A DNA stretch of 64,000 bases from assembly GCF_004345735.1 (NCBI RefSeq), contig NZ_SLXL01000002.1, positions 372,001 through 436,000 on the forward strand. The letters are read 5' to 3'. The first letter of the stretch is position 1. Every line of letters starts with the position of its first letter. This document shows positions 44,762-51,629 of the stretch, one piece after another. The notes beneath the pieces were generated by a model. That model ran no database searches and was not told where the DNA came from. It saw nothing but the letters and a program-made list of their open reading frames with translations. The stretch comes from Rhodovulum adriaticum (GTDB lineage: Bacteria > Pseudomonadota > Alphaproteobacteria > Rhodobacterales > Rhodobacteraceae). The translations under genes were made by a program, and so were the position numbers.

Positions 44762-46606
44762 ATGGCATTGTTCAGCAAACTCAGAAACCGGTTGCGGAAA
44801 TCTTCCTCCAAGATCGAGGAGGGGCTGGAGGCCATCGTGCAGGAGGGGGGCACCGAAGAAGAGGTGACCCAGCCCGACGCCGCGCAACAGCCCCCCAACG
44901 CCCCCGAACCGCTGGTGCTGGGCGCGGATCAGGCGGTGACGCCGGACGCCGAGCGGATGCCGCCGCCCCCGGCCCCGCTGGACGACATGGACGAAGGCCC
45001 GGTCGCGGACCGGCCCGCCGAAACACCCAAGGCAGAGCCTGCACCGGACCCGGCCCCCACCCCGGCGGCAGAGCCGGACCCGGCCCCGTGGCAGGCCGCA
45101 GAACCGCAGCCCGAGCCCGAGCCCGAAATTATCCCCGAGCCGGAGCCTGCGCCACAGCCCGAGCCCACCCCGATTCCCATGCCGGAACCGGAAGAGGCCC
45201 CGGAACCGGACCCCGAACTGCCCCCGGCCCCGGAACCCGCGCCGGAACCCATCCCCGAACCGCGCCCCACGCCGCCGGAGGAACTGCCGGCGCCGCCGGT
45301 CGAAACGCCCCCCACCCCGCCGGCGGAATTGCCTGACGCGCCCGCGGAAACCCCGCCGGCCGCGCCCGACGAACTGCCCCCGCTGCCCCCGTCGGATCTG
45401 CCCGGCGGCGACACCGGCACGGACCTTCCGCAAACGGACGACACCGCGGGGCGCAAGGGGTTCTTCGGCCGCTTCTTGAACCGCAGCGCAGAGCAGCCCG
45501 AGGAACAGCCCGCACCCGAGGCACAGCCCGCCCCGCAAGAGCCGCCAATCCCCGAAGCGCCGCAAGAGCCGGCGCAGCCCTCGGCCTGGGTAACGCCCGA
45601 CCTGCCCCCGGCGGAACCGGGCTCCGACCCCGTACCTGACACGGCGCCCGCGCCGTCCGATGACCGCCCGCAATCGGCGCTGGCCGCGTTGGAGGACGAG
45701 CAATCCGCAGAGGAACCCGAACGCCGCGGCCTGTTCGGGCGCGTGCTGGGGGGCGGCAAGCGCACCGTCATCAAGCGCGAGCTGGACGACGACATGCTGG
45801 AAAGCCTGGAAGAGTTGCTGATCACCGCCGACATGGGCGTGGACACCGCCATGCGCGTGACCGCCAACATGGCCGAGGGCCGGTTCGGCAAACGCCTGTC
45901 GGTGGACGAGATCAAGGGCCTGCTGGCCCATGAAATCGCCCGGATCATGGATCCCGTCGCCGTGCCGATGCCGCTGTACCCGAAAAAGCCGCAAGTGGTG
46001 CTGGTGGTGGGCGTCAACGGTTCGGGCAAGACCACCACGATCGGCAAGCTGGCCAGCCAGTTCCGCGATGCGGGCAAATCCGTGATCATCGCCGCCGGCG
46101 ACACCTTCCGCGCCGCGGCAGTGGAACAGTTGCAGGTCTGGGGCGACCGCGCGGGCGTGCCGGTGATGACCGCGCCCGAGGGGTCCGACCCTGCCAGCCT
46201 GGCCTATGACGCCATGGCCCGGGCCGAGACCGAGGGCGCCGACCTGCTGATGATCGACACGGCGGGGCGGTTGCAGAACCGCCAGGATCTGATGGCCGAG
46301 CTGGAAAAGATCGTCCGCGTCATCCGCAAGCGCGATGAGACCGCGCCGCACAACACGCTGCTGGTGCTGGACGCCACGACCGGCCAGAACGCGCTGAGCC
46401 AGGTCGAAACCTTCCGCAAGATGGCCGACGTGTCGGGTCTGGTGATGACCAAGCTGGACGGAACCGCCAAGGGCGGCGTGCTGGTGGCCCTGGCCGACAA
46501 GTTCGGCCTGCCGATCCACGCCATCGGCGTGGGCGAAAAGATCGACGACCTGGCCCCCTTCGACCCCGAGGAATTCGCCGACGCGCTGGCCGGTATAGAT
46601 GGCTGA
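44762..46606 (+). CDS. ftsY: Signal recognition particle receptor FtsY
   Basis: The SRP receptor GTPase that docks ribosome-SRP complexes at the membrane. It is 614 residues, with about 320 in an acidic, Pro/Glu-rich linker (residues about 40-320) before the NG domain, longer than in many relatives. The G domain shows GVNGSGKTTTIGKLA (G1), DTFRAAAVEQL, LLMIDTAGRLQNRQ and MTKLDGTAKGG. Two amphipathic GFFGRFL/GLFGRVL-type segments lie near residues 233 and 322, like the lipid-binding helix at the N domain. Downstream genes follow in the usual order. Confidence 0.97.
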   Translation: MALFSKLRNRLRKSSSKIEEGLEAIVQEGGTEEEVTQPDAAQQPPNAPEPLVLGADQAVTPDAERMPPPPAPLDDMDEGPVADRPAETPKAEPAPDPAPTPAAEPDPAPWQAAEPQPEPEPEIIPEPEPAPQPEPTPIPMPEPEEAPEPDPELPPAPEPAPEPIPEPRPTPPEELPAPPVETPPTPPAELPDAPAETPPAAPDELPPLPPSDLPGGDTGTDLPQTDDTAGRKGFFGRFLNRSAEQPEEQPAPEAQPAPQEPPIPEAPQEPAQPSAWVTPDLPPAEPGSDPVPDTAPAPSDDRPQSALAALEDEQSAEEPERRGLFGRVLGGGKRTVIKRELDDDMLESLEELLITADMGVDTAMRVTANMAEGRFGKRLSVDEIKGLLAHEIARIMDPVAVPMPLYPKKPQVVLVVGVNGSGKTTTIGKLASQFRDAGKSVIIAAGDTFRAAAVEQLQVWGDRAGVPVMTAPEGSDPASLAYDAMARAETEGADLLMIDTAGRLQNRQDLMAELEKIVRVIRKRDETAPHNTLLVLDATTGQNALSQVETFRKMADVSGLVMTKLDGTAKGGVLVALADKFGLPIHAIGVGEKIDDLAPFDPEEFADALAGIDG

Positions 46607-50037: not shown

Positions 50038-50628
50038 ATGCACGGGCTGATCAACCGCGCATTGCAGGACTTTTTGCGCGATGCCCACGGGCGCGAGGCC
50101 TGGGCGGCGATTGCCGGGGCCGCCGATGTCGACGTTCGCGGGTTCGAAGCGATGCTGACCTACCCCGACGCGCTGACAGAGGCCGTGCTGGACGCGGCCA
50201 GCGCGCATCTGCACACACCACGCGCGATGATCCTGGAGGATCTGGGAACCTACCTCGTGTCCGACCCATCGATGGAGGCGCTGCGCCGGCTGCTGCGCTT
50301 TGGCGGGGCGAATTTCATGGAGTTCCTGTATTCCCTGGATCACCTGCCCGACCGGGCGCGGCTGGCCGTGCCCGACCTGGACCTGCCCGACCTGACGCTG
50401 ACAGAGGACGGCCGGCAAAGCTATACCCTGCATTGCCGCGATGCCTGGGCCGGGTTCTGTCCCATCCTGCAGGGTATCCTGCGCGCCATGGCCGACGATT
50501 ACGGCGTTCTTGTCATGCTGGATATCACCGGCCTCGAGGGGCCCCGGACGGCGATCCGAATCCGACTGCTGGACATGCGCTTTGCCCGGGGGCGCGACTT
50601 TTCACTGAAGGGGGCGGCGGCGCCATGA
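50038..50628 (+). CDS. H-NOX-like (heme-NO-binding fold) protein with missing heme-site residues
   Basis: A 196-residue cytoplasmic protein whose length and helical pattern match bacterial H-NOX sensors (MHGLINRALQDFLRDAHG opening, FLYSLDHLPDRA, then a beta-rich end). By-eye alignment to canonical H-NOX places Pro104 at the proximal heme histidine (LDHLP against MDEVH), with His102 two residues earlier, and CRDAW at the YxSxR heme-propionate motif (133-137). It may therefore not bind heme in the usual way. GGAGGG precedes the ATG. The ATGA overlap couples it to the GGDEF protein, so it probably regulates that enzyme. Confidence 0.78.
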   Translation: MHGLINRALQDFLRDAHGREAWAAIAGAADVDVRGFEAMLTYPDALTEAVLDAASAHLHTPRAMILEDLGTYLVSDPSMEALRRLLRFGGANFMEFLYSLDHLPDRARLAVPDLDLPDLTLTEDGRQSYTLHCRDAWAGFCPILQGILRAMADDYGVLVMLDITGLEGPRTAIRIRLLDMRFARGRDFSLKGAAAP

Positions 50629-51629
50629 ACATGGCCGGTCCCCCCGTCGGGCAAGGGCGCGTGATCGGGCTGTCGGGTTCGGCCCTGGATCGGCTGATGC
50701 CGATGCATCTGTGGATCGGGGCCAGCGGGCTGGTCGTGCGGGCGGGGCCAACCCTGGCGCGCATGGCGGGCGACGGGCTGTGCGGCCAACCGCTGGAACG
50801 GGTGATCGCGCTACGCCATCCGGCCCGCGCCGCCACGCTGGACCTGATGCTGCGCCTGCAGGGCACGCCCCTGAAGCTGAACCTGACCGCCGCGCCCGAC
50901 ATGCCGTTGAAGGGTATGGTCGTGGCCCTGCCCGCGGGCAGCGGCGCGTTCCTGAACCTGTCCCCCGGCCTGTCGCTGGTCGAGGCGGTCAACCGCTTCG
51001 ACCTGACCTTGCAGGATTTCGCGGCGACCGACCTGGCGGTGGAACTGCTGTGGCTGGTCGAGGCCAAATCCGCCGTCACGACCGAGTTGAAGCGCCTGGC
51101 CAACCGCCTGAACGGCGCCCGCGCCAGTGCCGAGGCGCGCGCGGCCACCGACACGCTGACGAATGTCGCGAATCGCCGCGGGTTGGAGGCGATGCTGACC
51201 CGCCAGGCCGCATCCGGCCGCCCCTTCGCGGTGATGCAGGTGGACCTGGATCATTTCAAGGCGATCAACGACACCCATGGCCATGCGGCGGGCGATGCGC
51301 TGCTGCAAGAGGCGGCCGCGATCTTGCGCGGACAGTGCCGCCGCCGCGATGGGGTCGGGCGGATCGGCGGTGACGAATTCGTCCTGGTTTTCGACGACCT
51401 CGTAGACCCGCGCGTGCTGCACCGCATCGGGCAACGGCTGATCGAACGGCTGGAGCAGCCGATCGAGGTGAACGGCCAGACCTGCCGGATATCTGCCAGT
51501 ATCGGGGTCGCGCTTTCGACCGGCCCCGCCCCGACCGACCCTGTACGCCTGCTGCACGAGGCCGACCGGGCGCTTTACGAGTCCAAGCGCGCCGGGCGCG
51601 GCCGCGTCACCATCGCGGCGCCGGGCTGA
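50625..51629 (+). CDS. HNOBA-like / GGDEF diguanylate cyclase
   Basis: A 334-residue cytoplasmic protein. The ATG at 50625 overlaps the H-NOX-like stop. Residues about 27-150 resemble the H-NOX-associated (HNOBA) domain of soluble guanylate cyclases: MHLWIGASGLVVRAGPTLAR, PLKGMVVALPAGSGAFL, DFAATDLAVELLWLVE. A helical linker (about 145-175) leads to the GGDEF domain, with GGDEF at 248-252 (active-site form) and R239-R-R-D242 (inhibitory I-site). It should make c-di-GMP from GTP under control of its partner. Confidence 0.88.
   Translation: MNMAGPPVGQGRVIGLSGSALDRLMPMHLWIGASGLVVRAGPTLARMAGDGLCGQPLERVIALRHPARAATLDLMLRLQGTPLKLNLTAAPDMPLKGMVVALPAGSGAFLNLSPGLSLVEAVNRFDLTLQDFAATDLAVELLWLVEAKSAVTTELKRLANRLNGARASAEARAATDTLTNVANRRGLEAMLTRQAASGRPFAVMQVDLDHFKAINDTHGHAAGDALLQEAAAILRGQCRRRDGVGRIGGDEFVLVFDDLVDPRVLHRIGQRLIERLEQPIEVNGQTCRISASIGVALSTGPAPTDPVRLLHEADRALYESKRAGRGRVTIAAPG

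Follow-up and report, generated by a model that had tools for sequence, protein, structure and literature searches.

Two overlapping genes of Rhodovulum adriaticum encode an H-NOX-like protein without the classical heme-binding residues and a diguanylate cyclase in which an HNOBA (PAS-like) part and a long helix precede a GGDEF domain. We propose, with a probability of about 0.6, that in this pair, which is of the 'Group 5' type, the H-NOX protein directly regulates, and probably inhibits, the cyclase through HNOBA, and does so without an ordinary His-ligated heme. The pair lies in a 64,000-nucleotide stretch of contig NZ_SLXL01000002.1 (hereafter referred to as the window) and belongs to an already published group that is common in Rhodobacteraceae-type bacteria, so that the locus is ordinary for its family. 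Here we describe the two proteins and their relatives, and weigh the explanations for an H-NOX protein that keeps its fold and its partner while lacking its heme site.

Architecture of the gene pair

Both genes lie on the forward strand. The H-NOX-like protein, of the His-less Group 5 type, consists of 196 residues (positions 50038–50628), and the HNOBA(PAS)–helix–GGDEF diguanylate cyclase consists of 334 residues (50625–51629); the two reading frames share an ATGA start/stop overlap at 50625–50628, confirming the coupled gene pair described in a first-pass annotation of the sequence. That annotation, whose observation on the pair is real and was in the main correctly read, also recognized a split version of soluble guanylate cyclase (sGC), with H-NOX, HNOBA, helix and cyclase in order, and this layout is supported by the profile, fold and family evidence presented below. 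The sGC beta-1 protein is a single chain with a cGMP cyclase and a His-ligated heme. The window pair shares its order of H-NOX, HNOBA/PAS, helix and cyclase, with an H-NOX model that reaches a Z score of 21.6 and an HNOBA profile match, but differs in having two chains, a GGDEF output and no proximal His. Chance does not explain the domain matches, given their E-values, the HNOBA assignment of the window protein being the weakest part and leaning on its relatives.

Structure of the H-NOX-like protein

The Pfam HNOB profile matched the first protein with 83.3 bits (E 2.4e-23), far above the cut-off of 25.5, which confirms the proposed membership of the H-NOX family. Its AlphaFold model (pLDDT 93.4), which can show neither heme nor a partner, adopts the H-NOX fold, with Z scores of about 20–22 to Nostoc H-NOX, which is also the best sequence match in the PDB (E 3e-19), and to the H-NOX domain of human sGC beta-1; the comparison with 2o09 gave a Z score of 20.6 and an rmsd of 2.3 over 178 residues. 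An alignment of 88 H-NOX sequences has a mean column identity of 54% and 16 invariant residues. Across 233 Group-5-type sequences, Pro117 never varies (233 of 233), and R83, R84, R87, A152, D153 and G156 are nearly invariant (231 to 233 of 233). These six residues, which Nostoc H-NOX lacks, could be candidates for the cyclase interface.

H-NOX mutants such as S. oneidensis H103G mimic the NO-bound state, and the H103G structure 2kil is among the structure matches of the window model. A comparison with activated and resting structures was mixed. The model matched human beta-1 better in NO-activated (Z 21.6, 21.4 and 20.8; rmsd 2.0–2.2) than in resting structures (Z 20.1 and 19.6; rmsd 2.4), and Manduca sGC better in the active (rmsd 2.5) than in the inactive form (rmsd 2.8). 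By contrast, S. oneidensis H-NOX gave a Z score of 18.8 (NO) and 19.1 (Fe(II), mutant), ligand-free compact Manduca sGC (9oxn) gave 18.6 (rmsd 2.5) against 12.6 (rmsd 2.2) for the extended form (9p2r), and the cinaciguat-inactive structure 7d9t lies at an rmsd of 2.3. As these matches are mixed and the model stands without a His-type control, a closer likeness to NO-activated sGC was not used as evidence. A literature search for H-NOX H103G in combination with a histidine kinase returned nothing.

The missing heme site

In an alignment with Nostoc H-NOX, the proximal His105 corresponds to Pro104 of the window protein (codon at 50347–50349), and the Y-x-S-x-R motif to C133-R-D-A-W137 (50434–50448). 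Both losses noted in the first-pass annotation are thus borne out, and by this alignment the window protein has neither the proximal His nor the YxSxR motif of a classical heme NO/O2-sensing H-NOX protein.

The loss is shared across the family. Position 104 is Pro in 174 of the 233 Group-5-type sequences, His in 17, Gln in 11, Arg in 9, Asn in 5, Ser in 4, Ala in 4, Gly in 3, Glu and Thr in 2 each, and Asp and Lys in 1 each, and on this alignment the absence of the proximal His is the rule. The review that describes Group 5 states, in its account of the group, that fewer than 10% of the members have the proximal His and that most have Pro (PMC8738867); our tally of 17 of 233 (7%) agrees with that figure, and Pro104 of the window protein fits the group. 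Of the 235 sequences, only 2, the classical outliers L246 and L247, carry the YxSxR motif; none of the 233 does, so that even the 17 His-type members lack it.

No His or Cys that could replace the ligand specifically in His-less members stands out at positions 2, 76, 98, 102, 133 and 141. His102 (50341–50343), which aligns with Asn103 of Nostoc H-NOX and had been hinted at as a substitute, was rejected as a replacement ligand; the position is Asp or Glu in 224 of 233 sequences and His in only 5, and is therefore not a conserved substitute. Cys133 is the nearest candidate (121 of 216 His-less versus 6 of 17 His-type sequences, p 0.13). Cys occupies this position in 127 of 233 sequences, the window protein included, and Val in 56 of 235, so the residue is partly conserved and not invariant. 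In the window, Cys133 (50434–50436) takes the place of the YxSxR Tyr, as in the other sequences of those 127; the review's account of Group 5 describes its members as lacking a conserved Cys (PMC8738867).

Two further positions may vary with residue 104. Trp135 accompanies His104 in 10 of 17 His-type against 14 of 216 His-less sequences (Fisher 2e-7, the best of 1,057 tests). Among 17 nearest-relative pairs, this association runs 8:0 (p 0.008), as one of 175 tests and failing correction, and on the tree it reduces to only two well-supported independent pairs. For Ile/Val144 the nearest-relative pairs run 10:0, the position having been picked post hoc. The co-variation of residues 135 and 144 with His104 is thus suggestive only. 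The His carriers themselves are scattered, the 17 requiring 14 changes on the best tree, in which branch support is weak, so that gain and loss of His are not distinguishable.

The cyclase

The second protein matched the Pfam GGDEF profile with 138 bits, and its model (pLDDT 94.6) has a mixed strand and helix N-terminal part, a long signalling helix formed by residues 137 to 173 (51033–51143), and a GGDEF domain (residues 173 to 326; 51141–51602) that matches experimental GGDEF structures at Z scores as high as 25. The GGDEF motif (residues 248 to 252; 51366–51380) is invariant in 81 aligned sequences, including that of the window, and in the inhibitory I-site RRRD (residues 239 to 242; 51339–51350), R239 and D242 are at least 90% conserved, as expected from the initial description of both sites as intact. 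A class III nucleotide cyclase output is absent; the output is GGDEF, and in the Pfam search no further type of cyclase reached E ≤ 1.

The HNOBA/PAS-like part spans about residues 17 to 113 (50673–50963), as delimited by the Pfam match (residues 17 to 88), the family profile, and the strands and helices of the model. The proposed HNOBA domain is borne out by the relatives: taken singly, the window protein scored 22.3 bits (E 1e-4), just below the curated cut-off of 23.4, but 62 of the 81 aligned cyclases, the window included, matched HNOBA at E ≤ 0.01, and positions 7–169 of the cyclase family profile align to residues 206–383 of sGC beta-1 (E 7e-8). The relatives and the family profile together point to an HNOBA domain in the window cyclase. 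The structural search mostly covered residues 133 to 334, and the PAS/HNOBA assignment therefore rests on sequence.

Conservation of the pairing

We examined 243 loci (29 relatives, 28 named loci, 5 plasmid loci, 30 further loci, 120 regions and 31 further loci). Removal of 5 identical duplicates and 4 proteins shorter than 170 residues left 234, or 235 with the window, and setting aside L246 and L247, classical-looking sequences with YxSxR and His, gave the 233 Group-5-type sequences. These two divergent H-NOX copies, from genomes G294 and G004, have retained the proximal His as well as YxSxR, a combination seen in none of the 233.

A GGDEF gene, identified by a GGDEF-like motif required downstream of the H-NOX gene, follows in 229 of 232 Group-5-type loci (the window not counted), with the -4 offset of the window pair in 160 of the 229 and an RxxD site in 225. 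The three loci without a partner (L015, L041 and L116) are at contig ends, where the downstream DNA is too short for a whole partner gene. As the partner is found in every His-type locus (17 of 17) and in 212 of the 215 others, the pairing does not depend on His.

Of 295 genomes from the same family, 214 (that of the window included) have an H-NOX match, and among the named relatives found the nearest belong to Rhodovulum. Premature stops shorten the H-NOX protein to 79 residues in G271 (L218) and to 41 residues in G176 (L242), and in G036 (L240) the gene is split into two frames; judged from these sequences, a few species or assemblies seem to have a broken gene.

Genome setting

The window's genome encodes one HNOB protein, three GGDEF proteins and two EAL proteins. 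The neighbours of the pair are an FtsY-like signal-recognition GTPase, an EamA transporter, IspA (septation protein A) and a DUF4153 protein, with a MarR-type regulator and Sdh5 downstream on the opposite strand. At 44762–46606, the window encodes an SRP54/FtsY-type GTPase of 614 residues with a Pro/Glu/Ala-rich N-terminal stretch of about 330 residues before the SRP54 domains. The genome has no clear NirK or NirS, the NirK-family matches being weak.

Endogenous NO was considered as an explanation for His-type members. A nitrite reductase, counted where NirK passed the cut-off or a NirS-type match was strong (E < 1e-90), was found in 9 of 16 genomes with a His-type H-NOX and in 21 of 62 other genomes, the latter being that of the window and 61 hand-picked ones spread along the list numbering; this gave no clear link (Fisher p 0.15).

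Comparison with known systems

According to the review, what defines Group 5 is a sequence network, drawn at E < 1e-47, in which its members cluster with the H-NOX protein of Paracoccus denitrificans (PMC8738867). The window protein shares 39.9% identity with P. denitrificans H-NOX over 83% of its length (E 2e-21) in a pairwise comparison. The gene layout is the same: in the account given in PMC5588039, the H-NOX gene Pden_3719 overlaps the GGDEF gene Pden_3720 (DgcA), and the protein has no axial His, as is also the case in R. sphaeroides. A sequence from P. denitrificans HAMBI_2443 (L063, not Pden_3719 itself) reads SLRELPGR and has Pro at the proximal position, as in the window. The novelty implied in the first-pass annotation does not hold, since both the replacement of His by Pro in this group and the overlap of H-NOX and GGDEF genes already appear in the portions of PMC8738867 and PMC5588039 that treat it.

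The Dinoroseobacter shibae pair Dshi_2815/Dgc1 (L076) also resembles that of the window, with a -4 offset and 48% identity; L076 is the only H-NOX match in G035, a genome that carries the tested 4,000 bases of D. shibae plasmid pDSHI03 at 100%. Unlike the window protein, L076 has the proximal His (GLDDLHDRARL). In G035, a segment of 3.2 kb or more, with a multicopper oxidase gene in it, is identical between replicons C2 and C4. In Rhodobacter capsulatus, H-NOX likewise lies beside a c-di-GMP gene (RCAP_rcc02630/02629, as mentioned in PMC7232146); in strain SP108 (L057) the offset is -4, as in the window, but the proximal residue is Gln (SLDDLQGR). As sketched in PMC8846402 and PMC5588039, a separate H-NOX protein also controls a cyclase in Shewanella woodyi and Legionella pneumophila, where, compared here by description, the partner is a two-domain DGC–PDE, the Legionella PDE being probably inactive (PMC5588039). 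Our literature searches turned up no measurements of binding, heme or activity for the window protein or a Pro-type member, and nothing on a Rhodobacterales H-NOX with proline and heme.

Proposed regulation of the cyclase by H-NOX

In the mechanism that we favour, H-NOX would bind the HNOBA (PAS-like) part of the cyclase encoded by the overlapping gene. The signalling helix would relay the conformational state of H-NOX to the GGDEF domain, whose activity would thereby be set, and probably lowered, in the way that D. shibae H-NOX acts on Dgc1 when NO is present. Because Pro stands in for the His and the propionate motif is lost, the window H-NOX cannot use the classical Fe–His rupture at the proximal site as its switch. 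It may be heme-free, or hold heme only weakly or by an unusual mode, and its resting form possibly resembles the 'His-released' state.

Published experiments bear on this proposal in both directions. According to the relevant part of PMC5588039, the P. denitrificans hnoX mutant is poor in biofilm, which its authors read as loss of DgcA inhibition; this phenotype, in a His-less member, would argue for regulation of the cyclase by H-NOX. The same source reports that NO also acts independently of H-NOX, which counts against the proposal. PMC8846402 and PMC7232146, both citing Bedrunka 2018, state that in D. shibae H-NOX acts with NO to inhibit Dgc1. Since D. shibae has the proximal His, this result cannot simply carry over to Pro-type proteins such as that of the window, and the experiments, made on a His-type member, weigh against such use.

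Among the alternatives, the one that survives best, possible though on balance doubtful, sees the Pro-type H-NOX as blind to any signal, acting on the cyclase as a scaffold or constitutive inhibitor to tune or stabilize it, with control exerted through expression. It would account for the persistence of the pairing and of protein conservation without His, the six near-invariant residues could form the interface, and D. shibae hnox is placed under the CtrA phosphorelay in the passage on this gene in PMC7232146; on the other hand, the whole H-NOX architecture is kept, which a plain scaffold might not need. We consider it unlikely that the Pro-type H-NOX senses NO in the ordinary way despite a rewired proximal side, binding both heme and NO with a different axial ligand or without one (four-coordinate or with water). 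The retained fold and the invariant Pro117 fit such a sensor, as does the partly conserved Cys133 as a possible ligand, and NO control through H-NOX is proposed by the P. denitrificans authors (PMC5588039) and NO sensing described for the D. shibae relative (PMC8846402), in the parts of these articles concerned. Against it stand the lack of a conserved substitute His nearby and of YxSxR, and the differences at residues 135 and 144 between His-type and His-less members (noted post hoc); D. shibae has the canonical His and therefore lends no support to an alternative ligand. A decaying, pseudogene-like remnant is very improbable, as the truncated and split relatives are outweighed by the intact gene of the window, the family-wide conservation and presence described above, and the P. 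denitrificans deletion phenotype (PMC5588039), which already leaves this idea poorly supported.

A bolder version of direct regulation, which we put forward tentatively and think improbable, holds that the heme ligand came and went many times, and that the Pro-type would be the heme-free counterpart of the form in which NO has broken the bond, a default inhibitor of the cyclase that answers to a different input.

The locus belongs to a widespread group for which the review, in its discussion of Group 5, asks how members sense NO at all (PMC8738867). The NO-responsive D. shibae H-NOX carries the proximal His, and the window protein and that of P. denitrificans carry Pro. Such relatives make it testable whether an H-NOX protein without its heme ligand regulates a cyclase, and in response to what signal. 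Under the bolder, heme-free version, His-type and Pro-type members would form a natural on/off series for H-NOX signalling.
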